Positions 7,767-50,402 of a DNA stretch of 64,000 bases are shown one piece after another. Numbering within the stretch: position 1 is the stretch's first letter; each line of letters starts with the position of its first letter. The notes beneath the pieces were generated by a model that ran no database searches, was not told the origin of the DNA, and was given only the letters and a program-made list of their open reading frames with translations. This DNA is from Bifidobacterium breve (GTDB lineage: Bacteria; Actinomycetota; Acidimicrobiia; Acidimicrobiales; Microtrichaceae). The DNA lies in contig CAMDLX010000003.1 in the NCBI GenBank assembly GCA_945901935.1, positions 1-64,000 on the forward strand, in the 5' to 3' direction. A program made the position numbers and the translations under genes.

Positions 7767-7770
7767 TCGC

Positions 7771-18995: not shown

Positions 18996-19013
18996 ACTGA
19001 CACCGGCGTCAGT
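18996..19013. promoter_or_regulatory. Operator site 3: ACTGAC-accggc-GTCAGT
   Basis: Palindrome in the divergent region between the acyl-CoA ligase (-) and the TetR gene (+). Confidence 0.83.
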
Positions 19014-19651: not shown

Positions 19652-19677
19652 AGATCGAACCCGCATGAGCCGGTAAC

Positions 19678-19691
19678 TGACGCTAGTGTCA
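19678..19691. promoter_or_regulatory. Operator site 4: (C)TGAC-gctagt-GTCA(t)
   Basis: Core TGAC-N6-GTCA upstream of the ABC transporter operon. Confidence 0.72.
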
Positions 19692-19720
19692 TGTTTCGTC
19701 ATCTGATACCAGGGGGTTTC

Positions 19721-21025
19721 ATGCGATCCAGAATTTTGGTCTCTGCGATATTCGTTTCTCTACTGGCTGCAGCCTGCAGCAATTCCAGCTCGGAGGGGAC
19801 GACAACCACCTCTGCTGCCAAAGGCGGGGATAGCTCCGCTACCCAGGTGGCAGTCACTGCTCCGGGGGTGACGGCGGACGAGATTCGGGTTGGGGGCGTC
19901 GCATCGACGACCAATCCACTCGGCGGCAAGTACGGGGAGTCCTTTGATGGGGTACAGGCATATTTTGCGATGGTGAACTCAGAGGGCGGAATCTACGGAC
20001 GCGACCTCACGCTGGCATCAGAACGAGACGACCAACTCAGCAACAATGATGCCGAGGTACAAGGCCTCCTCGAACAAGACAATGTCTTTGCTGCACTTCC
20101 CATGACCACGTTGTTGTTCACCGGTTCTGACCGACTCGTTCAGTCCGGGATTCCTACCTTTGGTTGGACCATCAACCCTGAATGGCAAGGCACCACAGAG
20201 GTACCCAAGTTGAACCTTTTTGGTCAGGCGGGGTCATACCTCTGCCTCGGATGCGAGCAACCACAGGTTGCCTACGTAGCCAAGATCTCTGACAGTCACA
20301 AGATCGGCGTCCTGGCCTACAACGTTCCTCAGTCCACCGAATGCGCCGAGGGTTGGGAGAAAACCTTCGACATCTACGGGGAAGAAGCCGACGCAGAAGT
20401 GGTGTTCTCGGACAAGTCTCTGAGCTACGGGATTACCGATCTCTCCGTGCAAGTGTCAAAGATGAAAGATGCCGGGGTGGACATGGTGGTCACCTGCATG
20501 GACACCAACGCAGTTGTAGCACTGGGCAAGGAACTTAAAAAACAGGCCGTTGAGGCCATTCAGTTTCTGCCCAACGGGTATGACCAAGCCTTCTTAGACG
20601 AGTTCGGAGACCTGTTCGAGGGTTCCTACGCCTGGACCTCTTTTGCTCCCTTTGAAACCACACCACAGCCGAAAGGCCTGAAAAACTACCTGAAGTGGAT
20701 GGAAGCCACTGACGGGCGAATCGGTGAAAACAGTCTGGTGGGTTGGCTCAACGCTGATCTATTCGTTACTGGCCTGCAAAAAGCAGGGCCAAACTTTGAT
20801 CAGCAGAAGGTTGTCTCCTCGATCAACGAACTCACCGATTACAACGCTGACGGCCTGCTGAGTTCAATCGACTGGTCAAACGAGCACAACAAGCGCGGTG
20901 AAACCACATGTGGAGCCGTTCTGATCGTGAAGGACTCAGAGTTCGTCCCCGTCACCATTGCAAAGGGCAAACCCTTCTCCTGCTTCGCGTTGAATACAGG
21001 CGTACTCACCACCACGGCTCAGTAA
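19721..21025 (+). CDS. Branched-chain amino-acid-type ABC transporter substrate-binding lipoprotein
   Basis: Signal peptide and lipobox LLAAAC; APGVTADEIRVGGVASTTNPLGG; start ATG 19721 after AGGGGG RBS. Confidence 0.85.
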   Translation: MRSRILVSAIFVSLLAAACSNSSSEGTTTTSAAKGGDSSATQVAVTAPGVTADEIRVGGVASTTNPLGGKYGESFDGVQAYFAMVNSEGGIYGRDLTLASERDDQLSNNDAEVQGLLEQDNVFAALPMTTLLFTGSDRLVQSGIPTFGWTINPEWQGTTEVPKLNLFGQAGSYLCLGCEQPQVAYVAKISDSHKIGVLAYNVPQSTECAEGWEKTFDIYGEEADAEVVFSDKSLSYGITDLSVQVSKMKDAGVDMVVTCMDTNAVVALGKELKKQAVEAIQFLPNGYDQAFLDEFGDLFEGSYAWTSFAPFETTPQPKGLKNYLKWMEATDGRIGENSLVGWLNADLFVTGLQKAGPNFDQQKVVSSINELTDYNADGLLSSIDWSNEHNKRGETTCGAVLIVKDSEFVPVTIAKGKPFSCFALNTGVLTTTAQ

Positions 21026-21031
21026 TCACCC

Positions 21032-23098: not shown

Positions 23099-23901
23099 TG
23101 ACCCCGACAACAGACTCGACCGAACATCCAAACGAACAGCCGGCACCGCTTCTTCAGGCCTCCGGTATCAGCAAACGATTTGCTGGGCTCATGGCCCTTG
23201 CCGACGTCTCGATTCAGGTTGGCGCAGGCGAGACAGTGGCTGTGATTGGTCCGAACGGTGCAGGAAAGAGCACCCTGTTCAACTGCTTGAGCGGAGTACT
23301 GCGAGCAGACCGGGGGACGGTGACGTTCGATGGGCAGCGCCTCGAGTCCCTAGGCCCGACTCAACGTTCCCGTCTGGGAATCGCCCGAACCTTCCAGCGA
23401 ATCGAACTGTTTGGTGGCATGACTGTTCGCGATCATTTGATGGTGGCTGAACGTGCCCGCTCAGGACGCGGTGGGCTTTGGTCTGATCTCTTTCGATCCT
23501 CCAAGCCGACCGAAGAGGAGTATGCCCGTTGCCAAGCAGTACTTGACCTGCTCGGACTCGATGATGTCGAGGACCGCTCCGCAGACTCGCTCTCGTTAGG
23601 CAAGGGCCGGCTCGTAGAACTGGGACGCGCCCTGATGTGCGAGCCGCGACTCCTCTTCCTTGATGAACCCTCCTCTGGCCTAGACCGCAACGAAACCGAA
23701 GAGATGAGCCTGGCCCTAGAGACAGTGCAACGAGAACACGGCACAGCCGTCGTGCTCATTGAGCACGACGTTCCGATGGTGCAGCGCCTAGCAACTCGCA
23801 TCTATGTGCTCGACTACGGAAGCTTGATTGCAAGTGGCAACACCATGGATGTGCTCGAGGACGAGGTCGTTCGCGCTGCCTACCTTGGAGTAGCCACATG
23901 A
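23098..23901 (+). CDS. LivG-type ABC transporter ATP-binding protein
   Basis: IGPNGAGKSTLFNCLSGVL Walker A; SLSLGKGRLVELGRALMCEPRLLFLDEPSSGLD. Confidence 0.92.
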   Translation: MTPTTDSTEHPNEQPAPLLQASGISKRFAGLMALADVSIQVGAGETVAVIGPNGAGKSTLFNCLSGVLRADRGTVTFDGQRLESLGPTQRSRLGIARTFQRIELFGGMTVRDHLMVAERARSGRGGLWSDLFRSSKPTEEEYARCQAVLDLLGLDDVEDRSADSLSLGKGRLVELGRALMCEPRLLFLDEPSSGLDRNETEEMSLALETVQREHGTAVVLIEHDVPMVQRLATRIYVLDYGSLIASGNTMDVLEDEVVRAAYLGVAT

Positions 23902-24641
23902 GCACTCCTGTGTTGAGCTGCGAGAATCTCGAGGCTGGCTACGGCCCGTTCCGCGCCCTATTTGGAATTTCCTTCGAGGTCGCTGAGGGAACTGCAACAG
24001 CCTTGATCGGCCCCAACGGTGCCGGCAAGTCAACAGTGGCACGAGTAGCGAGCGGACTCGTTGCTCCTTCTGCGGGTCGGGTGCTGGTCAAGGGCGTGGA
24101 CATGTCCGGCAAGGCCCCCCACGAGTTCGCTGAGGCAGGGATCGCTCACGCCCCAGAAGGGCGGGCTGTCTTTGCGACTTTGACGGTGCAAGAGAATCTG
24201 GAACTCGCCTTCCGAGAGGCGCTCGGCCGCAAGGGTGTTGGGGCTGCACTCGATGAGGCGTACGAGATGTTTCCTCGCCTGAAGGAACGGCGCACGCAGC
24301 TCGCTGGCACTCTCTCGGGGGGCGAGCAACGAATTTTGACGCTGGCACGAGTCATGATTCTGCGACCCGCCCTTCTGATTGCAGACGAGCTCTCATTGGG
24401 GTTAGCCCCGATGATCACCACCGAGGTCTACCGAATTCTTGAAAGAATCAAGGCGGCTGGCTGCGCCCTTCTCATCGTGGAACAACACATGGATTATGCG
24501 CTGGCCTTATCTGATGAGGTGCTGCTGTTACGTCAGGGAGAGGTCACCTTTCGGGGTCCACCAAGTGAGCTGGACCGAAGATCCGCCTCGCTCCTTTCAG
24601 AGTCACTACCCAAGAACTCACCACCGAAGGACGACTCATAA
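23898..24641 (+). CDS. LivF-type ABC transporter ATP-binding protein
   Basis: IGPNGAGKSTVARVASGLVAP; LSGGEQRILTLARVMILRPALLIADELSLGLAP. Confidence 0.92.
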   Translation: MSTPVLSCENLEAGYGPFRALFGISFEVAEGTATALIGPNGAGKSTVARVASGLVAPSAGRVLVKGVDMSGKAPHEFAEAGIAHAPEGRAVFATLTVQENLELAFREALGRKGVGAALDEAYEMFPRLKERRTQLAGTLSGGEQRILTLARVMILRPALLIADELSLGLAPMITTEVYRILERIKAAGCALLIVEQHMDYALALSDEVLLLRQGEVTFRGPPSELDRRSASLLSESLPKNSPPKDDS

Positions 24642-30429: not shown

Positions 30430-31260
30430 TCACTCGCCCTTCCAGTTGGGCTCGCGCTTCTCTTTGAAAGCCAAGGGCCCCTCTTTGGCATCCGCTGTTG
30501 AGAAGATCTTGGTAGAGAGTTCCTGTTCCACCTGATAGGCATCGCTCAGTGTGCCGTTCAATCCGCGAATGACCGACTCCTTGGTGGCCTGAACTGCCAG
30601 CGGCGCATTTGCCAGGATTCGTCGAGCCCACATGCCCGCCCGAGGCAGAAGGTCAGGCGGCGAGACAATCTCGTTGAGTAGACCAAGTTCCAAGGCATGC
30701 TCCGCAGAAAATGCTTCAGCAGTCAGGAGAAACTCCATGGCAGCCGGGAAATTCAGTTGCCGGGGTAGCCGCGCTGTGGTTCCGCCTCCTGCAAAGAGCC
30801 CTCGCTTTGGTTCCATCACACCGAAGGTTGCGCTTGGAGTCGCAAGGCGAATGTCGGTGCCGCCCAACATCTCCATGCCCCCAGCAACACAGGGGCCATC
30901 GATCGCCGCAATGATCGGCTTGTAGATCTTGGCATTTCTCAGAACTGCTCGGGTCCCGTCTTCAAGCTTGCATCCATCAATCTCGGTGACCTCACCCTTG
31001 GCGATCTGCTCGGAGAGCGCCGTGACCTGCGGGATGTACGTCTTGAGGTCTGCGCCCGACATGAAGTTTCCTGGCACCCCCGTGATAATCGCAACCCACA
31101 GGTCATCCTCGTAACGAAACTCCCTCCACGCGGCTGCGAGGTCGCGAAAATGGAACATATCAAGGGAGTTGCGCGACTCGGGTCGGTCGATCGTGATCAG
31201 CATCGCGTGTTCAATTGCGGACCCGCCAAGCACTGGGTTTCGTTCCACATGAATAGTCAC
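30430..31260 (-). CDS. Enoyl-CoA hydratase/isomerase family
   Basis: MLITIDRPESRNSLDMF; AIDGPCVAGGMEMLGGTDIRLA; GTG start at 31260. Confidence 0.88.
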   Translation of the reverse strand: MTIHVERNPVLGGSAIEHAMLITIDRPESRNSLDMFHFRDLAAAWREFRYEDDLWVAIITGVPGNFMSGADLKTYIPQVTALSEQIAKGEVTEIDGCKLEDGTRAVLRNAKIYKPIIAAIDGPCVAGGMEMLGGTDIRLATPSATFGVMEPKRGLFAGGGTTARLPRQLNFPAAMEFLLTAEAFSAEHALELGLLNEIVSPPDLLPRAGMWARRILANAPLAVQATKESVIRGLNGTLSDAYQVEQELSTKIFSTADAKEGPLAFKEKREPNWKGE

Positions 31261-31278: not shown

Positions 31279-31300
31279 AACCTGACGCCCGTGTCAGGTT
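31279..31300. promoter_or_regulatory. Operator site 7: AACCTGAC-gcccgt-GTCAGGTT
   Basis: Perfect 8-bp arms in the divergent region 31260/31319; extra half-site GTCAG at 31305-31309. Confidence 0.86.
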
Positions 31301-31318: not shown

Positions 31319-32560
31319 ATGAACTGGACTCCACCACCACGTTCGGCTTGGGTCGACAAACTCGTACAGGTTGGCCAATCCCTTGGAGATGATGGCGCCG
31401 CGATGATCTCACTCGACCCCGAGGAACTCCTTGTTGGCGCACAGTCAGCAACAGGACTGCAGGATTTTGGGGATGACTGGTTTGAGGTCCCGTACCGCTG
31501 GCTCCTGGAATCAATGCAGAATGAGGCACAACTGCACCTCCCAGGCAGGCTGCGGGCGCGAACCGAAATTGACCGCATTCTTGCAAACCGACTGCGACTG
31601 GTTGAGCTCTGGAAAGAATCACCAACGCTGCTCACCGGCACAGTGGAGAAACCGATTTTTGTAACGGGCCTTGGCAGGTCCGGGACCACCTTGTTGCATG
31701 AATTACTAGCGCTCGATGACGGGGTCCGCTCCCCGCAACTCTGGGAGTTGATGTACTCAGTGCCGCCACCCCAAGCCGGCTCGTACGAAACCGACCTTCG
31801 TATTTCGCGTGCTGATGATGAGATCACGGTGATGGATGAGATGGTCCCGGCGTTTACCTCGATGCATGAGAACCGAGGTTTCTTGCCGACCGAATGCATC
31901 TTTGCTTTCGCACATCAATTCTCGAGCGACATGTTCACTGGCCTCTACAACGTGCCGAGCTACATGATTTCAAGATCGGGGCTTGATCACGCTCCCGAGT
32001 ACTCCTGGCACCGCAGGATGCTCACCACCCTCAGTTCTGCTCATCCCGGCCGGTGGGTACTGAAAGCGCCTTCGCACTTGTCCTCATTGCCCTTGCTATT
32101 CCAGGAGTATCCAGACGCCCGGGTGGTCATTACCCACCGCGACCCACTTCGCGTCATTGGATCACTAGCAGACCTCATGGCCACGCTTCACTGGATGCAC
32201 TCTGATCACGTCGACCACGCTGGAATCGCAGAGCTGCTTGGATTCGGTCTCGGCTACCTGATGGATGAGGTAACTGCTGTACGAGACTCTGCCGTACTAC
32301 CAGAGGACCAGATCTCTGACGTGATCTATCAGGACCTGATCGCTGACCCAGTTGCAGTGATTACTGCCTTGTACTCCGACTGGGACTTGGAACTCACCGA
32401 AGAATATCTAGAACGCGTTCGAAGCTATATCGCTGCCAGACACACCGACAGGTCAAATGCTCACGCATATCGGTTCGAAGATACTGGCCTGAACCTTGCC
32501 GAGAATCGGGAGCGCCTCGCCCCCTATCAAGAACGGTTCGGAGTTATCTCCGAGGTTTAG
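31319..32560 (+). CDS. Sulfotransferase family protein
   Basis: PIFVTGLGRSGTTLLHELLALD; PDARVVITHRDPLRVIGSLADLMATLHWMHSD. Confidence 0.85.
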   Translation: MNWTPPPRSAWVDKLVQVGQSLGDDGAAMISLDPEELLVGAQSATGLQDFGDDWFEVPYRWLLESMQNEAQLHLPGRLRARTEIDRILANRLRLVELWKESPTLLTGTVEKPIFVTGLGRSGTTLLHELLALDDGVRSPQLWELMYSVPPPQAGSYETDLRISRADDEITVMDEMVPAFTSMHENRGFLPTECIFAFAHQFSSDMFTGLYNVPSYMISRSGLDHAPEYSWHRRMLTTLSSAHPGRWVLKAPSHLSSLPLLFQEYPDARVVITHRDPLRVIGSLADLMATLHWMHSDHVDHAGIAELLGFGLGYLMDEVTAVRDSAVLPEDQISDVIYQDLIADPVAVITALYSDWDLELTEEYLERVRSYIAARHTDRSNAHAYRFEDTGLNLAENRERLAPYQERFGVISEV

Positions 32561-33684
32561 AGCTGAATGATTCGAGCTGTCGGATGAGGCGGATTCTCTG
32601 CGAGCACCCAACGCACAAGCATGTAGCCCTCGGTGCGGCCACCAGTATCAATCCAATTCGCCGTACCAGGGTCCTCGGCAGCAATCACTAGCCGCCAGGA
32701 GCCATCCTCGCTCCGCTGCGCATTCTGATCATTCAGGCAAGTGGTTGAGTAGCGGGAGTCGTAGGACTCCATCCACGGATTGGTCACGGTGAGACCCCAA
32801 TACGTGAAGGGTAATTCAGGCGCCTGCACGGTCACCTCGAGCGCCTCACCTTGCGCCAAGCGGAACAGGCCGCCGTGATAGGTCATGTCGGCATCGGAGT
32901 GACTCTGAAGCTCAGAGTCCTGATCTTCGACATGCTCAGCTCCGCTTTTGCCGCCAAAGTGATTCAGATTTGCCTCGGCCCCAGACCAAATCTCGGCGCA
33001 AGCGTGACCAACAAAGGACAAAAACATCGCGGCGAATTCAAGTTGCGGCGCAAACTCACTTGCAGTGCAACGAGGAGGGGGCACCTCGCCCACGAGTTGG
33101 ATTCTTAACTGTGATGGTCGCTGAGTTTGCTTGTCATGAAAGGTCTCACGAATAGCGACTTGACCGCAGTCTGGCTCTAGTTGAATCCAGTTTCGAACTC
33201 CCTCGGGGCGCACAGCAGAGAGCCAGATATCAACCTCACCATCGCTGCCGAGTTCGAAGCTATCTAGATGCACCTGCGAGAGCGTCCCGGTCCGACCCCC
33301 CATCGGCCCCTTGCCAACCGGAGTGCCAAAGGTAAGGCCCACGTACGGGGCCTCTCCTCGTGTTCCCGTCATGTGGTACGTCTGCGATGAGTCAAGTGCG
33401 CAGAACCAATAGGTCACATCAGGGTTATCCACCATCAGCTTTCGAAAGGGAGTCTGCGAGACAAAAAGCTCTGGGTGTAATGCATCGTTCTTCTCGATGA
33501 ACCACTCCTGTGCCAGTGAAGCCAACCGAGTTGCCCAGCGATACCCCTCCGCTAAATCTTGTGCAGTATGAGGAACCGGAGCCGCCAACATCCAGTCCAC
33601 TGCCGCTCGCTGCGCGTCCAGCCAACCCTCGAAGGCGCTTGCCAAGCGTTCAGTATCAGAAGCCACTGCTGCATCTTCAGTCAT
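32557..33684 (-). CDS. DUF1214-type protein, paralogue of CDS 6564..7766
   Basis: VDNPDVTYWFCALDSSQTYHMTGTRGEAPY ... GEVDIWLSAVRPEG; start MTEDAAVASD at 33684. Confidence 0.65.
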   Translation of the reverse strand: MTEDAAVASDTERLASAFEGWLDAQRAAVDWMLAAPVPHTAQDLAEGYRWATRLASLAQEWFIEKNDALHPELFVSQTPFRKLMVDNPDVTYWFCALDSSQTYHMTGTRGEAPYVGLTFGTPVGKGPMGGRTGTLSQVHLDSFELGSDGEVDIWLSAVRPEGVRNWIQLEPDCGQVAIRETFHDKQTQRPSQLRIQLVGEVPPPRCTASEFAPQLEFAAMFLSFVGHACAEIWSGAEANLNHFGGKSGAEHVEDQDSELQSHSDADMTYHGGLFRLAQGEALEVTVQAPELPFTYWGLTVTNPWMESYDSRYSTTCLNDQNAQRSEDGSWRLVIAAEDPGTANWIDTGGRTEGYMLVRWVLAENPPHPTARIIQL

Positions 33685-33688
33685 GAGT

Positions 33689-34639
33689 TCAACTTTCCGT
33701 TGGATCGATTGAAGGTAAAATTCCCAATGACGCAACTGCCTCGAGCTGCTCAACAAACTGAGGCAACGAGTTCTGCAGCATGCGCAGGTTCACATGAGTT
33801 GCGCCGAGTTCCTGCAGCGAGCGAAGACGGTCCAAACTGCGATGAGGATCGTTGACAGGGTCAAGTTCCTCTGCCCCGAGCACGACATCGAAAGGTAGGT
33901 CGCGCTCCTCCCAGAACTGCGAGTTCCTGAGTTCCGCCAGCAGGCCGGAAAGTTGCTGATCATTCAATCCAAACGGGACCCAGCCGCTGCCTAGTTCGCA
34001 GGCACGTCGTAGCGATCGAGCAGTCCGACCCCCGATCCAGATGGTCGGATCGGTAGTCAGTGCGCAGGGGTCAACGACAAGACTAGAGAAGCGGAAGAAT
34101 GCCCCGTCGTACTTTGGCTCTGCCACTCCCCAAGCTGAGCGAAGACCGCTCAGAAAGTCATCTGTTCGAGCACCGCGATCGGCGAACGGTACGTCGAGCA
34201 GTTCGAACTCCTCGTGCAGTGAGCCCACTCCGACACCAAGAATCACTCGCCCACCCGAGAGTACGTCAAGGGTGCCGTAGGTCTTCGCCACCTGGAGCGG
34301 ATGGTGGTACGAACCAACCAGAACATGGGTTGCTAGAGCAATCCGCGAGGTCACGGCGGCCATCCAACTGAGCGTGACTGCCGGGTCGTAGTACCGCGTT
34401 CCTCGTGCTTGACCCGTAGCTGAGACTGCCTGAGAGGGAACAGCCACGTGCTCGGAACACGTCAGGTGGTGAAACCCCAACCGATCTGCTTCCTGAGCAA
34501 TGACTCGAATGTCCTCGGGGGTAGCGGTGAGTTCCCAGGGTTGACCAACCCGGGGGTTCATCGAAAGTACTGGCGTCACGATGCCAAGCTTCAAGGGTGC
34601 TTCCTGCCCTGCGTACTTCTCCCCTGCATCGCTCACCAA
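33689..34639 (-). CDS. LLM-class (F420-dependent) oxidoreductase
   Basis: ADRLGFHHLTCSEHVAVP; GTLDVLSGGRVILGVGVGSLHEEFELL. Confidence 0.86.
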   Translation of the reverse strand: MVSDAGEKYAGQEAPLKLGIVTPVLSMNPRVGQPWELTATPEDIRVIAQEADRLGFHHLTCSEHVAVPSQAVSATGQARGTRYYDPAVTLSWMAAVTSRIALATHVLVGSYHHPLQVAKTYGTLDVLSGGRVILGVGVGSLHEEFELLDVPFADRGARTDDFLSGLRSAWGVAEPKYDGAFFRFSSLVVDPCALTTDPTIWIGGRTARSLRRACELGSGWVPFGLNDQQLSGLLAELRNSQFWEERDLPFDVVLGAEELDPVNDPHRSLDRLRSLQELGATHVNLRMLQNSLPQFVEQLEAVASLGILPSIDPTES

Positions 34640-36729: not shown

Positions 36730-37749
36730 TCAGCCTGTTGAGAAGATCAGCTCGGCTAGTCGATCGTGATGCCAGCTAGCGCTGCCGAGCAACTGCTCGC
36801 TCGCCTGAGCGCGCCGCAATCTCAGATGAAGGTCATGCTCCCAAGTGAATCCAATCCCACCCAGGCTTTGCAGGCCATCTCGGGCCCACCTACGCGCTGC
36901 AGCGCCAGCGGCCGCCTTCGCAACATGCACTGCGTGATGCTGCTCAGCGGCATCCGAATCCAAACACATTGCTGCGAAATACACCGCAGCATCAGCGCGT
37001 TCGAGCAAGAGAGCAGCATCAACCAGCTTCCACTGCAGACCTTGGAAGGAACCCACCGGGCGATCAAACTGCACCCGCTCGCGTACGTATTCAAGGGTTG
37101 CATCCATCAACCATCGGCCCACCCCAATGAGTTCAGCGGCTAGCGCTACCGTGCCCCGGTTCAGCACAGCAGCAAGTTCCTCTGCGCTTACGTCGGTTGT
37201 ATCTAACCCAACTGGAACATCGAATTGAAACACCGGCCGGGAGCGATCAAGTGTTGCCACTTCCTGAAGGCTCAACTCTGTAGTCGGCACACAGCTCACC
37301 GCGTTCTGTGCGCTCAGAATGGCAACCAGATCTACTTCCTTGGCGTGTGGCACAAAGCTGCGCACGGGATCTTCGCTGAGTACCCAATAACCATCGCTAC
37401 CGCAGACTGCCACCGTTCCCGTTATCTCCCCCGCAGCCACTTGGTCGGCTAAGGGATGCTCAATCAAACGGAGGAGCGGCAAAAACATAGAGGTGTTGAC
37501 CCACCCTGGCCCAGGTGCCAGAACGCGACCCGCTTCTTCCATAAACAGACAGAGATCGACAACTGGGGCATCTCCGAGTGCAGCCCAGTCGCGCAGGTGC
37601 CGGTCAAAGAAAGTACGCGCGTCTTCTGGCCCCGCACTTGTCACATCGTAGAAGGCATCTCGGATCAGGCTCGGTGGGCATTCATTGCCAAACATCGACC
37701 GAGCCGTCTCACGAAGCAGCACCTGCTCCTCATTCAGCGTGAAGTCCAC
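36730..37749 (-). CDS. Acyl-CoA dehydrogenase (short, partner-type subunit)
   Basis: YVRERVQFDRPVGSFQGLQWKLVDAALLLERADAAVYFAA; LGGIGFTWEHDLHLRLRRAQ. Confidence 0.88.
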   Translation of the reverse strand: MDFTLNEEQVLLRETARSMFGNECPPSLIRDAFYDVTSAGPEDARTFFDRHLRDWAALGDAPVVDLCLFMEEAGRVLAPGPGWVNTSMFLPLLRLIEHPLADQVAAGEITGTVAVCGSDGYWVLSEDPVRSFVPHAKEVDLVAILSAQNAVSCVPTTELSLQEVATLDRSRPVFQFDVPVGLDTTDVSAEELAAVLNRGTVALAAELIGVGRWLMDATLEYVRERVQFDRPVGSFQGLQWKLVDAALLLERADAAVYFAAMCLDSDAAEQHHAVHVAKAAAGAAARRWARDGLQSLGGIGFTWEHDLHLRLRRAQASEQLLGSASWHHDRLAELIFSTG

Positions 37750-37788: not shown

Positions 37789-38973
37789 TCAACCACGGGG
37801 AAGGCCCAACACACGGGTTGCAACAACGTTGCGTTGAATCTCTGAGGTTCCGCCGCCGATGGTTGCGGCAAGCGAGATCTGCCAGGACTGCTGCCAGCGG
37901 CCGCCCTCCTCAACAAGCTCGGGGTCAACTACTGCGGCATACGGGCCTTGCAGTTCCATGCCGAAGGCGTACAGACGCTGTCGTAGTTCAGAGGTTGCCA
38001 GCTTCATAAACGAGTGCTCTGGAGCAGAAGACCCCTGAGCGAATGAGGCAAACCCCTTGTAGCCAAGGGCCCGAAGCGAATGCACCTCCTCGTACAGTTC
38101 AGCAAGCTTGCGGCGCACTACCCCATCGTTTTCAAGGCCTTGTCTACGGGCGATCTCTACAAGACCCTCGAGTGCGCGCTGTGCGCTCGAGACGCTTTCC
38201 ACCCAGAGCGCACCGCGCTCATGTGCCAGAGAGCCCATCGTTATTCGCCAGCCCGAATTGAGGTCTCCTACAAGGTTCTCTTTAGGAACGACCACCTCGT
38301 TCAAGAACACTTCGGCAAACTCGATCGCCCCAGTTAGGTGCCGCAAGGGCCGAACCTCAAGACCAGGAGAATCCATGTCAATGATGAGCACAGAGATTCC
38401 CTTGTGCTTAGCAACGCTGGTATCGGTACGGACGTAGCAGAAACATTTTTCTGCCACCATCGCGTAACTCGTCCAGACCTTCTGCCCGGTGACAATAAAG
38501 CTGTCCCCGTCAGGAACGGCTCGAGTTTGCAGACTCGCTAAGTCAGACCCAGCATCTGGTTCACTCATGCCGACACACCACACCGTGTCGCCCCGAATTG
38601 CTGACGGCGCCATGCTCTTTTGTTGCTCGTTTCCGAACTCCAACAGGCTGGGCCCAACGATTGCATACCCGCCGAAATGGACTGACCGTGAGACTCCGCG
38701 GCTTGCCAGTTCCTCCATAAATATCAGGGTCTGTAGCGGGGTTGCATTGCGGCCACCAAGCTCTGGCGGGTAGCTCGGTACCATCCACCCGCTATCAAAT
38801 AACTTGGCCTGAAACTCACTGGCCCACTGAGGAATCTCGGGTGACTCATCACCGATCCAGTCCCGTCCACCCTTCATCTCCTCGGGAACTTCAGCGTCCA
38901 AGAACGCAACAAGTTCGGCACGAAATGCTTCTTCTTCTGCCCCCCAGGCCAGTTGCACCGGATCAACCCACAT
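37789..38973 (-). CDS. Acyl-CoA dehydrogenase
   Basis: MSEPDAGSDLASLQT; VTGQKVWTSYAMVAE; GGGTSEIQRNVVATRVLGLPRG. Confidence 0.9.
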   Translation of the reverse strand: MWVDPVQLAWGAEEEAFRAELVAFLDAEVPEEMKGGRDWIGDESPEIPQWASEFQAKLFDSGWMVPSYPPELGGRNATPLQTLIFMEELASRGVSRSVHFGGYAIVGPSLLEFGNEQQKSMAPSAIRGDTVWCVGMSEPDAGSDLASLQTRAVPDGDSFIVTGQKVWTSYAMVAEKCFCYVRTDTSVAKHKGISVLIIDMDSPGLEVRPLRHLTGAIEFAEVFLNEVVVPKENLVGDLNSGWRITMGSLAHERGALWVESVSSAQRALEGLVEIARRQGLENDGVVRRKLAELYEEVHSLRALGYKGFASFAQGSSAPEHSFMKLATSELRQRLYAFGMELQGPYAAVVDPELVEEGGRWQQSWQISLAATIGGGTSEIQRNVVATRVLGLPRG

Positions 38974-39934
38974 CCATCTGCGGGTAGCGCTCACGGTTAG
39001 CGGGTGGAGGACCGAAAAAGAAAGGCGGAACCACTCCATCAGCTGCAGTCGGAAAGAGTTCTTCTCTGCGAGCCGCTACCGAGTCAAGGGTCCACGTCTT
39101 GTCGTCGGTGATCTCGACTAACGGTCGCCAGCCTTCTAGTAACTGGATCTGTCCACCCTGAACCTTGATGACTTGTCCCGATATTCCCTGTGCCAAGTCC
39201 GATGCCAGCCAGCAGGTCACTGCCGCCACGTTGTCGGGGCTGAATCGATCAAACCCAGACTCATCCGGCAACATGTAGTCGCCAGCAATTGCCTCGGTCA
39301 GGCGAGTTCGAGCGACCGGTGCAATGGCGTTCACTCTCACTCCCATGCGCTCGCATTCGCGAGCCATCACGATGGTGAGCGAGGCAATGGCAGCCTTGGC
39401 AGCGGCATAGTTGACCTGGCCTGCATTGCCATACAAACCAGATTCTGATGCCGTGTTGACGATTGCTGCTCCTACGGGCTCGCCCGTAGTTTTGCTGCGC
39501 TGTTTCCAATAGGCCGCCGCATGACGGGCCACGGAGAAGTGGCCCTTCAGATGCACAGCCATCACTGAATCCCAGTCCTCCTCGGACATGTTGAAGCTCA
39601 TCCGGTCACGAAGGATTCCGGCATTGTTGATAACCACATCAAGTCCACCGTAAGTCTGCACTGCTTGGTCGATCAGAGACTCAGCACCACTCCAGGACGA
39701 GATGTCATCAGTGTTTGCCGCGGCCGTGCCGCCGGCGGCAACAATCTCATTGACAACTACTTGCGCTGCTCCAACAACGGCAGCCTCGGAATCCGAAGCA
39801 CCATCAGCTGAACCACCTAGGTCATTGACGACCACCGATGCCCCCTCGCTAGCAAGCAGGAGTGCTTCCTCACGGCCAATTCCGCGTCCTGCGCCAGTGA
39901 CGACGGCTACCTTTCCCTCAAATAACGTGCCCAT
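38963..39934 (-). CDS. Short-chain dehydrogenase/reductase
   Basis: VAVVTGAGRGIGREEALLLASEGASVVVNDLGG; NNAGILRDRM; YAAAKAAI. Confidence 0.92.
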   Translation of the reverse strand: MGTLFEGKVAVVTGAGRGIGREEALLLASEGASVVVNDLGGSADGASDSEAAVVGAAQVVVNEIVAAGGTAAANTDDISSWSGAESLIDQAVQTYGGLDVVINNAGILRDRMSFNMSEEDWDSVMAVHLKGHFSVARHAAAYWKQRSKTTGEPVGAAIVNTASESGLYGNAGQVNYAAAKAAIASLTIVMARECERMGVRVNAIAPVARTRLTEAIAGDYMLPDESGFDRFSPDNVAAVTCWLASDLAQGISGQVIKVQGGQIQLLEGWRPLVEITDDKTWTLDSVAARREELFPTAADGVVPPFFFGPPPANRERYPQMDVG

Positions 39935-39978: not shown

Positions 39979-39994
39979 CTGACGTCCATGTCAG
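39979..39994. promoter_or_regulatory. Operator site 9: CTGAC-gtccat-GTCAG
   Basis: Upstream of SDR/ACAD/ACAD (-) operon; identical N6 to site 2. Confidence 0.83.
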
Positions 39995-40092
39995 CATCGG
40001 GACTGTAGCGGTTCTCTGCGCCATAAGTCGGCTGTTCCGAAGCCGACTCGTGTGATGCCTGAGGTGGAGGAGGAGGGCGAAGGCGAGAAAGC

Positions 40093-40106
40093 TGACACAG
40101 GCGTCA
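40093..40106. promoter_or_regulatory. Operator site 10: TGAC-acaggc-GTCA
   Basis: Upstream of arylsulfatase gene. Confidence 0.7.
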
Positions 40107-40129
40107 CCTAACGCTCCGGACCGATAGCC

Positions 40130-42412
40130 TTGCTCAACGTGGACTCCGAACCGTTCGACGGCACGATCGGCCGATATTTCTGGGAATCAACTCCATCTTG
40201 GCCAGAGCCTGTTCGGCCCAACCCTGGTTCCCCGAACGTTCTCATTGTTCTGCTTGATGATGTTGGGTTTGCGCAGTTGGGTTGCTTTGGCTCCCAGATC
40301 GACACGCCCGTCATGGACGGCCTCGCTGCGAACGGTTTGCGGTACAGCAATTTTCATACAACAGGGCTGTGTTCACCCACTCGGTCTTGTGTGCTGACCG
40401 GAAGAAATCATCATTCAAATGGCATGGGTCGAATCACTGATCTGGCAACGGGTTTCCCTGGCTACTCAGGGCGCATTCCGCGGTCCAACGGCTTCTTGTC
40501 ACAGATCCTCGTGGAGCGCGGGTATGCAACTTTTGCCGTCGGTAAATGGCATCTCACCCCCGATGAAGACATGCACCTAGCAGCGGCAAGAACCTCTTGG
40601 CCGCTCGGCCGCGGGTTTGAACGGTTCTACGGATTTCACGGAGGCGAAACCCATCAGTTCGCCCCTTGGCTTGTGCACGATAACCACTTTGTAGAGCAGC
40701 CTCGCTCAATCAAAGAGGGGTACCACCTCACAGAAGACTTGGTGGATCATGCCATTGAGGATGTCTTCGACCTGCGCGCAGTCGATGCCGACAAACCCTT
40801 CTTTTTGTACCTCGCAACGGGTGCCTGCCACTCCCCCCATCACGCCCCGCAAACCTGGTTGGATCACTATCGCGGCCGATTCGATCACGGGTGGGATGTT
40901 GAACGCGAGCAGACTGTGCAACGGCAGCGCGAGTTAGGAGTCATCCCCGCTCACACAGAACTCTCTCCTCGGCCGGACTGGGTTCCTGCCTGGGATTCGC
41001 TCGAAAATACTGAGCAGCAGTTGTACGCAAGATTTATGGAAGCTTTCGGGGCATACCTGTCCCACACCGACGCTCAGATCGGCCGCCTGCTTGAAGCCCT
41101 TGAGGAAACAGGTGATCTAGACAACACCGTGGTGCTGCTCTTATCGGACAACGGGGCATCCTCCGAGGGTGGACCGAACGGCTCAGTCAATGACGCCCGT
41201 CCGTGGAATCTGGTTGGGAGACCACTAGATGAGGCACTTGAGCGGATCGACGAGATAGGCGGGCCACGGCTTCACAACAACTATCCGTGGGGTTGGACCG
41301 TGGCCGGCAACACCCCGTTTCGAAGGTGGAAACGAGAGGTGCACGAGGGCGGAGTTGCAGACCCGCTGATTGTGTCCTGGCCAGCCGGTCTGGCCTCGGT
41401 GGGCGAAGTACGTACTCAATACACCCATGCCATTGATCTGGTTCCGACCTTGCTCGAACTACTCGATATCGACCCGCCCGAGGCACTTAGCGGAGTTACG
41501 CAAACCGCAATGGCGGGGAGCAGCTTTGCGCACACGCTTGTCGATCCCGAAGCCCCAAGTAATCGGCACACGCAATACTTCGAGATGTTTGGCTGCCAAG
41601 CGCTCTATCAGGATGGATGGAAAGCAGTTTCCTTTCACCCGATCCACACGGCCGAGCCCGGTTTAGATCACGTCAGCTGGGAGCTCTACGACCTGGTCAA
41701 CGACCCCGCCGAATGCAACGATCTGAGTGATCAGGACCCAGTACGTCTTGCCCGCATGATCGAGAAATGGTGGGAAGAAGCCGAGAAGTATCAGGTGCTG
41801 CCGCTCGATAATCGACCGTTCTCGGAATTCACCTTGGGCCGGCCGCTCGGGCCAGCAGCACACCGCAGCTTGGCAACCTACTGGCCGGGTACCGGCATGG
41901 TCCCCGAAGAAGCTGTGCCGCCGCTCTTCAACCGGTCACATGCCTTGCGCGCCGACGTAGAGATTCCTGAGTCAGGCTGCGAAGGCGTCTTGTTGTCCCT
42001 TGGCAATCTGCAAGGCGGGTTTAGCTTCTTTGTTCAACAGAATCGCCTTGTGTACGTGCACAATCTGGTCGGCAAGCAGTGGGTGCGCATTGAGGCCGAG
42101 ACGGAACTTCTTCCGGGGGAGCAGTGCCTTGAGGCTCGGTTTACTCTCACCGGGTTACACCAAGGGCAGCTGCAGCTTTTCTCGGATGACCGCTTGCTCG
42201 GCACTGGGCAGATCGATCGCTTTACGCCTATGCGCTGGAACCTCACCGGAGCAGGGTTGCACTGCGGAGCCGACCCTGGGCTTCCCGTCTGTGATGACTA
42301 CGAGTCCCCGTTTGCGTTCACAGCCACACTGCACCGTGTGGCGCTCGAAGTGTTCGGTGACGCAACCCTCGACCAAAAAGCCCAAGCAGAGGTCGCTGTC
42401 ATCCGCCAATAA
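40130..42412 (+). CDS. Type I arylsulfatase, Cys-type formylglycine motif, no evident signal peptide
   Basis: PNVLIVLLDDVGFAQLGCFGS; CSPTRSCVLTGRNHH (CxPxR); VGKWHLTP; TTG start assumed. Confidence 0.9.
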   Translation: MLNVDSEPFDGTIGRYFWESTPSWPEPVRPNPGSPNVLIVLLDDVGFAQLGCFGSQIDTPVMDGLAANGLRYSNFHTTGLCSPTRSCVLTGRNHHSNGMGRITDLATGFPGYSGRIPRSNGFLSQILVERGYATFAVGKWHLTPDEDMHLAAARTSWPLGRGFERFYGFHGGETHQFAPWLVHDNHFVEQPRSIKEGYHLTEDLVDHAIEDVFDLRAVDADKPFFLYLATGACHSPHHAPQTWLDHYRGRFDHGWDVEREQTVQRQRELGVIPAHTELSPRPDWVPAWDSLENTEQQLYARFMEAFGAYLSHTDAQIGRLLEALEETGDLDNTVVLLLSDNGASSEGGPNGSVNDARPWNLVGRPLDEALERIDEIGGPRLHNNYPWGWTVAGNTPFRRWKREVHEGGVADPLIVSWPAGLASVGEVRTQYTHAIDLVPTLLELLDIDPPEALSGVTQTAMAGSSFAHTLVDPEAPSNRHTQYFEMFGCQALYQDGWKAVSFHPIHTAEPGLDHVSWELYDLVNDPAECNDLSDQDPVRLARMIEKWWEEAEKYQVLPLDNRPFSEFTLGRPLGPAAHRSLATYWPGTGMVPEEAVPPLFNRSHALRADVEIPESGCEGVLLSLGNLQGGFSFFVQQNRLVYVHNLVGKQWVRIEAETELLPGEQCLEARFTLTGLHQGQLQLFSDDRLLGTGQIDRFTPMRWNLTGAGLHCGADPGLPVCDDYESPFAFTATLHRVALEVFGDATLDQKAQAEVAVIRQ

Positions 42413-42428: not shown

Positions 42429-44132
42429 TTAGGAGGTGAGCAAGAATGAGGCGGCAAGCGGGCCGCCGCCGGCAGCAGCAATACCAACTTGCGGAGTTCC
42501 ACCCGAGGGAAGGGTGCACTGACGTTCACCGGCCTCACCCCACAGCTGCAAGCAAGCCTCATGCAGGAATCCAAACCCATGCAGGCGGCCAGCAGAAAGT
42601 TGGCCTCCGTGAGTATTCAGGGCAACTCCCCCAGAGCGACCAGCTGCTTCACGAGCGATGCGCTCACCGCCGTCGACAAAAGGACCGCCCTCACCTTTGC
42701 CGCAGAACCCCAGCGCCTCGAGCCAGCACAACGCAATAAAGCTGAACCCGTCATAGAGCTCTGCAACATCAACATCTCCGGGCTTCAGATCGGTGCGTTC
42801 CCACATCATCGCCGAGGCATCACGCAGTGCCATTGTGGTCAGATCATCGAACTGGTCCCAGCTCGGGCGACCCCGCAGGGCGGTTCCCATCGCCTCGATC
42901 TTGATGGGTGCCTTACGTAAGTCATCTGCGGAATCACTCCGGGACACGATGAAGGCCGTGGACCCATCAGCTGGAACGTCGCAGTCATACAGGCACAGGG
43001 GATCAGAGATCATGCGAACATCCAGGTAATCCTGAAGCGACATGGGGCTGCGGTAGATCGCCTGGGGATTTACCTGCGCGTTTCGCCTGGAGTTCAGTGC
43101 AATCCAAGCCAGCTGTTCTCTGGTTGTTCCAAACTCACAGAAGTGACGATTGGCCATCATGCCAATCCAATTTGCAGCCGAGGGCGCACCGAACGGCAGC
43201 GTCCATTGCATAAAGCTGTCAGCTCGATACCCGCCACCACCGCCACCGCCCATCGTGACCGAGGACCGACTCCGATCGCCTTGAGCCGAGGCCTCCCAGA
43301 CAGTTCGGAAACACAGCACATGCGAACACAGTCCGGTTGCAACCGCGGCCACAGCGTTTGCCACTGCACCGAGTTGGCCAGGCAGTTCAAGGCCACCGGA
43401 AAACCAATTCAGCTCAAGACGTAGTGCGTCTTGAAGTTCTGTTATACCCACACCCGAAAACCCTGGAGGGACATTCATGTTGCCGGGGTAGGTAGCAAGA
43501 CCATCTATTTGTGAACGGTCCAGCCCCGCGTCTTCAATCGCTCGGAGGGCCGCCTCAATGGTGAGGTCCAGAGGCTGCCGGTAGATTCTGCGCCCGATCT
43601 GCGACTGGCCGATGCCAGAAATGACTGCCTGCCGCTCGCCAATATGCGACCAAGTTCTTGGTTCTGGTGCAACAAAAGCAACAGCGGCTGAGTCAGTCGA
43701 ATTTGCAGTCAGATCCTGTTCGAAAAAGGGAAGCCAGACGGCATCTTCGCCATCTCCGTACTTCTCGAACAACACCTTGACTGCCTGACCAATCGCAACA
43801 TCTTCAGGGTCGGTTCCGACCAGATTGGTGGTCAGTCTCAACCCTGGCTGATCTGCCAATTCGATAATCGCAACCACGTAAGGCGGATCCAAATCCGGGT
43901 ACCACAGCTGCCGGTTGATCGTGAACGCATGGACAACTCCCCGACCCGAGGACACCTGAGGTGCAACTTCGGTACTGAGGCATGCTGGGCAGATGGGGGC
44001 TGGCGGGTGAATCCATTCACCACACGGGGCGCACTGCAAAAAGCACAGCTCTTCACGCTCTCCCCCGGTCCAGAAATGCTGATTCTCTTCAGTCACTCGT
44101 GGAAGTACCCGGAAGGGCTGAGGCGTGCTCAT
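42429..44132 (-). CDS. Fusion of N-terminal DUF35 OB/Zn-ribbon with thiolase-fold lipid-transfer-like domain
   Basis: N-terminal FLQCAPCGEWIHPPAPICPAC Zn ribbon; C-terminal QAVISGIGQSQIGRR ... LYDGFSFIALCWLEALGFCGKGEGGPFV. Confidence 0.85.
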   Translation of the reverse strand: MSTPQPFRVLPRVTEENQHFWTGGEREELCFLQCAPCGEWIHPPAPICPACLSTEVAPQVSSGRGVVHAFTINRQLWYPDLDPPYVVAIIELADQPGLRLTTNLVGTDPEDVAIGQAVKVLFEKYGDGEDAVWLPFFEQDLTANSTDSAAVAFVAPEPRTWSHIGERQAVISGIGQSQIGRRIYRQPLDLTIEAALRAIEDAGLDRSQIDGLATYPGNMNVPPGFSGVGITELQDALRLELNWFSGGLELPGQLGAVANAVAAVATGLCSHVLCFRTVWEASAQGDRSRSSVTMGGGGGGGYRADSFMQWTLPFGAPSAANWIGMMANRHFCEFGTTREQLAWIALNSRRNAQVNPQAIYRSPMSLQDYLDVRMISDPLCLYDCDVPADGSTAFIVSRSDSADDLRKAPIKIEAMGTALRGRPSWDQFDDLTTMALRDASAMMWERTDLKPGDVDVAELYDGFSFIALCWLEALGFCGKGEGGPFVDGGERIAREAAGRSGGVALNTHGGQLSAGRLHGFGFLHEACLQLWGEAGERQCTLPSGGTPQVGIAAAGGGPLAASFLLTS

Positions 44133-44133
44133 T

Positions 44134-44502
44134 TCACTCCTCGGAAATCGCTTGCCGGCCCTCTTCGAACCCCTCTTGCGCAAAGGGCAACATTTCTCGT
44201 GCCGGTACCAGCCCAAAGCTCGGTTGGGTCAGCACCATCGTGCCGAGTACTTCTTGCCAGGTTGCTCCGAACTCTGCTGCCAGCATCGCGTGCCGGCGAA
44301 CCGCTGGCCCATGACGCAAAATCACTGTGCAAGCCAAGCGAATGAGTTCGTGGGTCTTGCGATCGATCCCTGGCAAGCCGTCCAGAGCCGAGAGATAGCC
44401 CGACAACCCTTCTGCAAGCGCCGGGAACGCTTCTTGCATAGAGCCGAGTTCGTCTCGAAACTCGCCCTGGTTGTCTGCTTGAGCGTTGGGTTGACCAGCC
44501 AT
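44134..44502 (-). CDS. Carboxymuconolactone decarboxylase/AhpD-like family protein
   Basis: GIDRKTHELIRLACTVILRHGPAVRRHAMLAAEFGATWQEVLGTMVL; start MAGQPNA at 44502 favoured over upstream Met codons in the repeat. Confidence 0.75.
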   Translation of the reverse strand: MAGQPNAQADNQGEFRDELGSMQEAFPALAEGLSGYLSALDGLPGIDRKTHELIRLACTVILRHGPAVRRHAMLAAEFGATWQEVLGTMVLTQPSFGLVPAREMLPFAQEGFEEGRQAISEE

Positions 44503-47272: not shown

Positions 47273-48675
47273 CACATGCTGGACTGGCTCCAACCTGGCT
47301 GCAGGTAGACCACTCCCCTTCTGCGGCCTCGCTGAGCAACATCGCCCCGAGCGACACTCGCATTCACCGCCTAGCTGGAGGGCTCCGCACACTTGGGGTA
47401 CGCCCAGGAGACCTAGTCTCATGGCAGCTCCCCAATAGTACGGAGGCGGCCCTGCTGCTCTGGGCCTGCTGGCAACTCGGTGCGACTGCAGTCCCGCTAC
47501 ATCATCGAGCATCCGCTCAAGAGGTCGACGTCATGCTGGCAGCAATTCCAGATGCATTCAGCATCACAGCCAGCGAAACACAGCACATGATTCGCACCGA
47601 ATCAGCGTTACTCGAAGTGGTTCCACCTCCGTACGGTATTGCTCTCATTCTGCATACTTCCGGGTCTTCAGGTTCCCCAAAAGCCGTGATTCATACTCAT
47701 GACTCGCTCTACTTCAAAGCGAAGAGCATGGCTCAGGTCCACGCCCTCGGGGCAGAAGATGTTGTGCTCATGCCTGCACCGATGGCTCACATCTCGGGAA
47801 TCTTGAACGGGGTGACCTTGGTAGCAGCAGCAGGCATGAGGAGCGTGCTGATGAATCGTTGGGACCCCGAGCGAGCGCTCGCCCTCATTGCGGCCGAGCG
47901 AGTCAGCTTCATGGTCGGACCACCGACGTTCTTCTTGAGTCTGCTCCAAACCTCGGGGTTCACCTCTGAGAAGGTGAGATCACTCCGCCTGATCTCAGCA
48001 GGTGGCACGGGTGTGAGTCCCGCATTCTGCGAAGAAATCAGTCAGCGTTTTTCGGCAGTGGTCAAGCGAAGCTACGGATCTACAGAAGCCCCAACGGTCA
48101 CCACCTCTTGGGCGGGAGACCCAAGCGAGTGCATGCACGCCACTGATGGTCGAGCAACACCAGGCACTCAGCTCCGGCTGAGTGAGACGGGCGAACTTCA
48201 ACTGCGAGGAGATGGACTCTTTGCGGGCTACACCGATGCAGCGCTCACCGCTCAGAGCATCACCGCGGATGACTGGTTCTGCACGGGGGATCTGGCGCAG
48301 ATCACCGACGGATGGATCACCGTAACTGGACGAACCTCGTCGATGATCATCCGAGGCGGCGAAAACATCAGTCCCACGCAAGTTGAATCAATTCTCACTG
48401 CTCATCCTGACGTGTTGCAGGCAGTTGTAGTGGGCTTGAAGGATGCTCGGCTCGGTCAGCGGGTGGCCGCAGCGCTCACCACTCGAAACGGCTTGCCTTT
48501 TGGTCTTGAGGATTGTCACCGCTGGTGTGCCGAGCAGGGGCTGAGTCGCTTCAAATGGCCCGAGGTGATCCACCGAGTCGAAACCATTCCATTGCTGGGA
48601 TCAGGCAAAGCTGACCTCGTCGCAGTGCGCGAACTCCTCGAGCAGAGTTCCGGCGCTAGCTCACAGACTTCTTAA
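47269..48675 (+). CDS. AMP-dependent acyl-CoA synthetase/ligase
   Basis: ALILHTSGSSGSPKAVIHTH; GRTSSMIIRGGENISPTQVESIL. Confidence 0.88.
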   Translation: MTHAGLAPTWLQVDHSPSAASLSNIAPSDTRIHRLAGGLRTLGVRPGDLVSWQLPNSTEAALLLWACWQLGATAVPLHHRASAQEVDVMLAAIPDAFSITASETQHMIRTESALLEVVPPPYGIALILHTSGSSGSPKAVIHTHDSLYFKAKSMAQVHALGAEDVVLMPAPMAHISGILNGVTLVAAAGMRSVLMNRWDPERALALIAAERVSFMVGPPTFFLSLLQTSGFTSEKVRSLRLISAGGTGVSPAFCEEISQRFSAVVKRSYGSTEAPTVTTSWAGDPSECMHATDGRATPGTQLRLSETGELQLRGDGLFAGYTDAALTAQSITADDWFCTGDLAQITDGWITVTGRTSSMIIRGGENISPTQVESILTAHPDVLQAVVVGLKDARLGQRVAAALTTRNGLPFGLEDCHRWCAEQGLSRFKWPEVIHRVETIPLLGSGKADLVAVRELLEQSSGASSQTS

Positions 48676-50402
48676 GGACGCAGAAAGAACCCCTGAGGAT
48701 CCCACCCGCGAAGACGTTGAAGCTCCTGTGCTGTTGGTGGTTCAAGTTCTACGCAGTCGTCAGCAATGACAAGGTCCCAGCCGAGCCGCTCACGAATCGT
48801 TGCCTCCATACCGGAAGCGACTGCAATCAACTCGAAGAGCGTCCGGCTACTTCCTGCTTCCCCGTTCGCAGTTTCTCGCCTACGGAACACTCCCAATTCG
48901 GTCGCAATTCTGGTCACCCGGTCCCCCGGTGACGTGATGTACGGAACCTGACTCACGGTTCGCTTTGCGCTCAGCGTGGTCACAATCACGACCTCGTCGG
49001 CTGTGGTTGCAACATCGTTGCCTCCTCCTGATCCCACCAAAAAAACCTTGCCCGGAATAACGGTGGAATTGATGTTTCCTGCAGCGTCAACCTGAGCCGC
49101 ACCAAGACAGGCAACGCAGCTGGTATTGGGGCCGGGAATCATCGCCCCCAGCACCCAATCACTATCCGCCAGCATGGTCGCCGATGGGAAGGCTCGGTGA
49201 TTAAACACAAAAGGGTCAGCAAGAGTGGGTTCATATCCCAGCAAGCCAAGCTCTGCAGTGAGCACAGTTGGGGCGCCGCGTTCACGAGCCATTTCTGCGC
49301 CCAGCCAAGTTGCAAGGTTGGCAACTCCAGCACCTGCGAGCACCGTGTCTGCCTGCGTGGCTACGAGTCGATCGGCGAGTGTGCGCGCACCAAAAATCGC
49401 CGCGCGCTCCCAGTCATTCGCCGGGGAGTCAAGGTCGGGCGGCATCGAAGCCGCCTCGGCTTTCCAGGAGTCGCTCTGAGCGCGCTGGCGCAAACGACTG
49501 ATGCGTTCAGACCCAAGAAGCTCCAGATACTCAGTCTGGTCTGCGGGTTCAAGCACCCATTTGTTAATCCACTCATCGAATGCCGCGTCATCTTGACGGC
49601 TGACCTCTCGAACCTGAGACCAGAACTGCAGGTCTTCTCCGTAGGGCTCGGCCGAAGTAAACCTCCCGTACAGTCCTCCGGGATGAGCTCCGAGCGGACA
49701 CTCTGCAACGGCCAAGACCTGATGGGCTGGGATACGAACGAGGTGGGCCCATGGGCGAATGTCGTCCACAATTCTCTCTACCGTTGCAACCACGCCGCGC
49801 TTGGCAGCGAGGGCGCCCCAGACACCTTCGAGCATTGGCGGGTGAAAGGCGATGTTCCCGGCTGCGTCGGCAATCGCGCCATGCACGAATGCAATATCAG
49901 GAGCGTAGGCCTGCAGCATCCCTACTGTTCCAAATGGTGTGTCCACAGTCGCATAGCCCTGATTTGCCTCCATTGAAGATCCTGCAAGTGAATGAGTCGT
50001 GATGGCCGAAAGGCCTCGGGCTGCGGCCTCCATCCGTTGAGCAAAGCTCAGAAAGGACCAGTGCTCAACCTGCACCTCACCAGAGAGATACGCGGTTCCA
50101 AAGCGAGGGTTGGGACTGAAATTTGGGAACACATCGCCCGAATACCCGGTCACGACCTTGCTGACGAGTCCACCTCGAAAGAACAAGGTGCCCAGGCTCG
50201 ATAAAGACAGCATCACCAGAGTCCACTCTGGGTCCTGACCCCACCACTTTCGAATCAGGGCACGCGCAGCAGCCGACCAGCGGGTATGTGAACACAACAG
50301 GTGCACCGAATCGCCGGCCTGAACATGGCCGATGGCCTCCTCCAAACTGCAGACCTTGTTTGCCCTATTCCCCTGCGACTGATCGAACAGTGACTCATCC
50401 AT
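48672..50402 (-). CDS. Class I CoA-transferase-fold protein, alpha and beta halves fused
   Basis: 576 aa; FVHGAIADAAGNIAFHPPMLEG and LTAELGLLGYEP ... CLGAAQVDAAGNINSTVIPGKVFLVGSGGGNDVAT. Confidence 0.8.
   Translation of the reverse strand: MDESLFDQSQGNRANKVCSLEEAIGHVQAGDSVHLLCSHTRWSAAARALIRKWWGQDPEWTLVMLSLSSLGTLFFRGGLVSKVVTGYSGDVFPNFSPNPRFGTAYLSGEVQVEHWSFLSFAQRMEAAARGLSAITTHSLAGSSMEANQGYATVDTPFGTVGMLQAYAPDIAFVHGAIADAAGNIAFHPPMLEGVWGALAAKRGVVATVERIVDDIRPWAHLVRIPAHQVLAVAECPLGAHPGGLYGRFTSAEPYGEDLQFWSQVREVSRQDDAAFDEWINKWVLEPADQTEYLELLGSERISRLRQRAQSDSWKAEAASMPPDLDSPANDWERAAIFGARTLADRLVATQADTVLAGAGVANLATWLGAEMARERGAPTVLTAELGLLGYEPTLADPFVFNHRAFPSATMLADSDWVLGAMIPGPNTSCVACLGAAQVDAAGNINSTVIPGKVFLVGSGGGNDVATTADEVVIVTTLSAKRTVSQVPYITSPGDRVTRIATELGVFRRRETANGEAGSSRTLFELIAVASGMEATIRERLGWDLVIADDCVELEPPTAQELQRLRGWDPQGFFLRP

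Follow-up and report, generated by a model that had tools for sequence, protein, structure and literature searches.

The window, by which we mean the whole 64,000-nucleotide stretch of DNA analysed here, contains a sulfatase gene within a catabolic gene island in which two sulfotransferase genes are also found (Table 1). This raises the question of which sulfate ester the enzyme acts on, i.e., one that is taken up from outside or one that is made by the cell itself, and in which compartment the ester would be cleaved.

The gene encodes an AtsA-like sulfatase of the cysteine type

Judged from its sequence, the gene product is a cysteine-type sulfatase, AtsA-like rather than AtsA, and the host is an uncultured aquatic actinobacterium. 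The likelier start is a GTG at 40139, which is conserved among the relatives in the genus and gives a protein of 757 aa. The protein matches the Pfam model Sulfatase (PF00884, E=2.5e-61). Among 103 homologues, the formylglycine motif reads CSPTR in 100 and CSPSR in 3. The catalytic set is present (D43, D44, C81, R85, K139, H141, H234, D340, N341 and K401), and these ten positions are invariant in an alignment of 48 homologues. In addition, an FGE homologue is encoded in the same genome (contig C74, E=2.4e-83). That is, the C/S-x-P-x-R motif, the PF00884 match, the metal- and sulfate-binding residues and the FGE all place the protein among the type I (S1, formylglycine) sulfatases, of which the genome holds four more.

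Among proteins of solved structure, Pseudomonas aeruginosa AtsA is the closest relative (E=2.5e-79), and it also heads the fold search with the predicted structure (TMt 0.85), a confident model with a pLDDT of 85 and a pTM of 0.90. We call the protein AtsA-like and not AtsA because it has an extra C-terminal domain of ~200 residues, compared with a total of ~536 aa in AtsA. For these C-terminal ~200 aa, neither a Pfam model nor a sequence relative in the PDB was found. The protein also stays below the NCBIfam cut-offs for choline-sulfatase (TIGR03417, 79 vs 433 bits) and arylsulfatase (NF010322, 115 vs 481 bits).

Table 1 Features of the sulfatase locus and its regulon in the window
Feature	Coordinates	Strand	Details
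Sulfatase ORF	40130-42412	+	760 aa from TTG; intact; 766-aa open frame
CSPTR formylglycine motif	40370-40384	+	residues 81-85; C81 predicted to be converted to formylglycine
Sulfatase C-terminal ~200 residues	41807-42409	+	missing in AtsA; mainly beta-sandwich in predicted structure
SDR oxidoreductase	38963-39934	-	PRK07791 subfamily; divergent from sulfatase
DUF35/ChsH2-OB domain fused to Ltp2-like thiolase	42429-44216	-	steroid side-chain aldolase type; convergent neighbour of sulfatase
Paired FadE-like acyl-CoA dehydrogenase genes	36730-37749, 37789-39039		heteromeric
ABC importer	19691-24641	+	branched-chain-amino-acid type; binding protein, fused permease, two ATPase genes; in regulon
TetR-family gene	19055-19651	+	proposed regulon repressor; flanked by two operators
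ST1	5554-6567	-	Sulfotransfer_3, E=3.2e-20
DUF1214 protein	6564-7853	-	in apparent operon with ST1
ST2	31319-32560	+	Sulfotransfer_3, 2zq5/2z6v-like, E=1.6e-32
DUF1214 protein	32557-33756	-	adjoins ST2
Operator	9814-9829		upstream of apparent operon 9770 to 5554 (-), last gene ST1
Operator	18997-19012		upstream of TetR gene and acyl-CoA ligase 17181-18992
Operator	19677-19692		5' of ABC importer operon
Operator	31282-31297		between enoyl-CoA hydratase gene 30430-31260 and ST2; arrangement kept in two genera
Operator CTGACGTCCATGTCAG	39979-39994		SDR/sulfatase divergent promoter region; kept in four species of genus
Operator CTGACACAGGCGTCAC	40092-40107		24 bp 5' of sulfatase TTG; in window and L016 only

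Maturation and catalysis are expected in the cytosol

The 34 residues preceding the sulfatase core are polar, and their top 10-residue Kyte-Doolittle mean is -0.16; the substrate-binding protein encoded in the same regulon, which served as the positive control of this hydropathy test, reaches 2.8. Since an in-frame stop lies six codons 5' of the TTG, no alternative start or upstream reading frame could add a signal. A hydrophobic N-terminus is also lacking in the 103 homologues whose core could be recognised, all of which stay below 1.6 over the 35 residues that precede it. Neither the FGE homologue nor, as far as their starts could be judged by eye, any of the other four S1 sulfatases in the genome begins with a hydrophobic stretch. 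As the sulfatase and the FGE are both signal-less, we expect both maturation and catalysis to take place in the cytosol.

An earlier note on this DNA had claimed a full formylglycine motif, the lack of a signal peptide and, as a likely consequence, desulfation in the cytoplasm. The motif indeed stands in an intact PF00884 protein, the hydropathy values and the upstream stop leave no room for a signal, and the signal-less FGE and the likeness to AtsA are in favour of cytoplasmic desulfation. On the other hand, the oddity that the note had implied in the missing signal is not real. According to a review (PMC3920027), the cytosol is the typical location of cysteine-type sulfatases and the periplasm that of the serine type, and a hydrophobic N-terminus is missing in 103 of 103 homologues here. 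The absence of a signal is thus the rule for this sulfatase family and is not evidence of an unusual role.

A conserved operator joins the sulfatase to the island

The palindrome TGAC-N6-GTCA is found 16 times in the window, while 1.4 occurrences are expected and no shuffle gave more than 4. Fifteen of the 16 fit TGACRYNNRYGTCA, spanning 5543-63383 of the window, and the recurrent form at the regulon promoters is CTGACRYNNRYGTCAG. Of these 15 refined operators, 14 lie no more than 60 bp from an annotated gene start. The exception (63370) falls slightly inside the annotated start of a sugar-kinase-like gene. The operator of ST2 is placed 23 bp upstream of that gene. A scan for sigma-70 promoters found nothing. 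Directly behind one operator, we also observe a gene for a haem-oxygenase-like iron enzyme (PF14518; 4751-5521, minus strand). The same-regulon claim of the earlier note holds well: operators are present at the sulfatase/SDR promoter, at ST2 and at the apparent operon of ST1, and the sulfatase and both sulfotransferases track the regulon among genomes, as described below.

We have surveyed 33 genomes of the family for the strict operator 16-mer, with the reversed 16-mer as the control. Eleven genomes carry 10-22 copies and the rest 0-5, against 0-2 for the control, in a strict count that misses sites such as GTGACGCCGGCGTCAG (L105) and CTGACACAGGCGTCAC (window 40092). A full-length orthologue of the TetR protein in Table 1, with at least 42% identity, occurs in 11/11 operator-rich genomes and in 0/22 of the others. 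Because it is present in exactly the operator-rich genomes, this protein is most likely the regulator that acts on CTGACRYNNRYGTCAG. A second TetR-family gene (936-1532, minus strand) is 33% identical to the first, and like paralogues are seen in the same regulon-bearing genomes.

Members of the sulfatase family (at least 850 bits) are found in 10 of the 11 operator-rich genomes and in 4 of the 22 others. Two of these four, G019 and G009, have 5 and 3 operators, respectively, and in both the sulfatase is surrounded by a regulon-like cluster; in a third, G032, as in G020, an operator lies 57 bp 5' of the family sulfatase. (L059 and G032, with the same contig coordinates, represent one genome and were counted once.) Sulfatases adjoin regulon genes in L020, L053, L064, G009, G014, G019, G024 and G029, the neighbours being importer, P450, GMC, LLM, thiolase and amidohydrolase genes. 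In the tree, the regulon-linked sulfatases fall on several separate branches, with those of G020 and G032 apart from that of the window, which rules out the idea that the regulon sulfatases form one orthologue group. From this separation, it appears that the operator and sulfatases of this family came together repeatedly, on three or more branches. Since the genomes share ancestry, Fisher values for co-occurrence overstate independence, and the repeated linkage is the safer argument.

As for the sources of these loci, public MAG records titled Bifidobacterium breve (L015, L062 and L074) carry Acidimicrobiia-like sulfatase loci, and their names look wrong. The L015 locus shares its gene order with the window, at 93% identity.

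The island and the proposed role of the sulfatase

Overall, the gene content of the island looks like a route by which a hydrophobic compound, either alicyclic or branched, is imported and undergoes side-chain-type degradation. Besides the genes in Table 1, the regulon holds alcohol, SDR and GMC oxidoreductases, a P450, acyl-CoA ligases and several Ltp/DUF35 thiolases. The fused DUF35-thiolase protein next to the sulfatase matches both chains (A and B) of the Ltp2-ChsH2 aldolase 6ok1, which are separate in that structure. In the importer, the binding protein is encoded at 19691-21025, and the second ATPase gene (23898-24641) was assigned by its position and conserved co-occurrence. A fused CoA-transferase (48672-50402) was considered as IpdAB and rejected, its PDB matches being only glutaconate and oxoacid CoA-transferases.

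A search for the extradiol dioxygenase HsaC gave no match over the cut-off in four regulon-bearing genomes, three of which are at least 92% complete. Because HsaC is missing from these genomes, the classical 9,10-seco pathway of steroid-ring degradation is unlikely, and a sterol sulfate is weakened as the substrate of the sulfatase, being only a candidate. KshA_C-like Rieske proteins exist, none of them on the contig of the window, and they are not specific.

Taken together, we regard it as somewhat probable that a cytosolic AtsA-type sulfatase under TetR control desulfates an imported ester before its CoA-dependent breakdown. In such a scheme, the signal-less FGE would oxidise Cys81 to formylglycine in the cytosol, and a terpenoid- or sterol-like hydrophobic alcohol would enter the cell by import in the form of its sulfate ester. 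The sulfatase would hydrolyse R-O-SO3- to R-OH and sulfate, which is the established chemistry of its family, so that desulfation inside the cell would be the entry step; the freed hydroxyl may then be oxidised, activated as a CoA ester and degraded, probably in this order. Through the CTGACRYNNRYGTCAG operators, the TetR protein would control the sulfatase together with the importer, the oxidoreductases, the P450, the ligases, the dehydrogenases and the Ltp/DUF35 retro-aldolases. Such co-control is most likely, given the sequence data and the conservation of the operator.

One of the two options in the earlier note was an imported sulfated substrate. This agrees with the ABC importer in the regulon and with the regulon sulfatases in genomes that have no sulfotransferase orthologues, while the steroid-sulfate form of the idea loses ground with the missing HsaC. 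The binding protein of the importer, being of the generic branched-chain-amino-acid type, counts against an import specific to sulfate esters.

The sulfotransferases and other explanations

Each sulfotransferase gene of the window is accompanied by a DUF1214 gene. The adjacency of the two gene types recurs in L170, L171, L172, L176 and L178, including distant paralogues outside the regulon. Such pairing suggests that sulfotransferase and DUF1214 proteins may act together. We have found little in the literature on DUF1214 with sulfotransferases, on the localisation of AtsA, or on the bacterial degradation of sterol sulfates.

With two sulfotransferases in the regulon, an internal sulfate ester is a possible alternative substrate. 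ST1 and/or ST2 would sulfate an intermediate with PAPS, and the sulfatase would later remove the sulfate, which might serve for protection, solubility, trapping or transport. We rank this cycle second, after import and desulfation, and consider it conceivable but unlikely. Both enzymes belong to the regulon and follow it closely, as orthologues of ST1 (at least 50% identity) occur in 10/11 operator-rich genomes and those of ST2 (at least 60% identity) in 7/11, each against 0/22 elsewhere; the genome also encodes APS kinase, which is required for PAPS. In addition, ST1 is present in 9 of 14 sulfatase-bearing family genomes and in 1 of 19 without the sulfatase, but this co-occurrence may reflect joint membership of the regulon alone. 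The two sets do separate, in draft genomes: ST1 and ST2 orthologues are missing in G025, G019, G009 and G032 despite their regulon-linked or family sulfatases, while G015 has both sulfotransferases and no close sulfatase. Of ~75 loci outside the genus, just one (L085) has the sulfatase and an ST2-like gene no more than 10 kb apart. The more far-reaching proposal, that in a TetR-controlled pathway of the Acidimicrobiia two sulfotransferase-DUF1214 pairs sulfate the pathway intermediates in the cytosol and the sulfatase closes the cycle by removing the sulfate again, we hold to be distinctly unlikely.

It is improbable that the released sulfate is assimilated as a sulfur source and that the reaction does not serve to open a carbon pathway. 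Sulfur scavenging is a role commonly proposed for bacterial sulfatases, e.g., in M. tuberculosis (PMC3141025), and the four additional S1 sulfatases of the genome would fit with it; however, the sulfatase shares its operators with a carbon catabolic island in which no sulfate-starvation genes were seen, and three or more branches of related sulfatases have acquired a link to the same operator. The second option of the earlier note, a transient sulfate tag by which a sulfotransferase activates a beta-hydroxyl for elimination as in CurM and the olefin synthase, finds no support and is very hard to credit. Two intact Sulfotransfer_3 proteins do stand amid an acyl-CoA pathway, and ST1 has a marginal match to the sulfotransferase domain of CurM (E=0.0046). 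Yet elimination itself expels the sulfate without any sulfatase, which would merely restore the hydroxyl, the sulfatase and the sulfotransferases occur apart, and ST2 is closest to the 2zq5/2z6v-type sulfotransferases, not to CurM. No PKS, ACP or thioesterase domain was found in the scanned proteins of the window, save KR-type matches of ordinary SDRs. S1 enzymes can also promiscuously accept esters of phosphate and phosphonate, and the fold and the formylglycine cofactor of the S1 sulfatases are found in phosphonate monoester hydrolases as well. That our protein is mainly a phosphonate or phosphate ester hydrolase of this superfamily is nevertheless extremely improbable, as its match to the PehA model is weak (E=1.7e-15, score 56.6 against a cut-off of 900) and that to AtsA is far stronger.

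Comparison with known systems

P. aeruginosa AtsA/PAS (PDB 1HDH) and the window sulfatase have the fold, the formylglycine motif, the catalytic residues and the lack of a signal peptide in common, at 31% identity. The window protein differs by a polar N-terminal extension of ~33 residues and by the C-terminal beta domain of ~200 residues, and its gene sits in a catabolic regulon of the TetR type. The type I sulfatases of M. tuberculosis (AtsA, AtsB, AtsD, AtsF and AtsG) are likewise actinobacterial and matured by an FGE; they are signal-less and of similar length, 780 aa. These sulfatases are not known to be co-regulated with a CoA catabolic island. Their substrates are unknown (PMC3675115).

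In its layout, the regulon resembles the KstR cholesterol regulon of mycobacteria, where a TetR-type protein controls a large lipid and sterol catabolic gene set via a palindrome, and the window shares with it an Ltp2-ChsH2 side-chain aldolase and heteromeric acyl-CoA dehydrogenases. One KstR operon, Rv3531c/Rv3532, contains a sulfotransferase gene. The KstR sites include Rv3531c/Rv3532, and the KstR palindrome is TnnAACnnGTTnnA (PMC1995591), in contrast to CTGACRYNNRYGTCAG, the recurrent operator at the promoters of the window. The steroid-ring part differs as well, with HsaC missing in the regulon-bearing genomes. The sulfotransferase domain of CurM and the olefin synthase belongs to the same broad fold class as ST1 and ST2, with the similarity to ST1 marginal and ST2 nearer to 2zq5/2z6v; no PKS/TE context was seen among the scanned proteins of the window, and a sulfatase is no part of the CurM chemistry.

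Implications

The sulfatase itself is ordinary, and is unusual only in sharing an operator with an import-and-breakdown island that includes two sulfotransferases. As this conserved operator ties the enzyme to an importer and a CoA island, its substrate becomes findable: the TetR repression is probably lifted by this substrate in its sulfated or desulfated form, or by one of its metabolites. If the proposed role is true, the sulfotransferase/DUF1214 gene pairs would gain a first pathway context, and sulfate esters of hydrophobic alcohols would be a likely carbon source for freshwater Acidimicrobiia.
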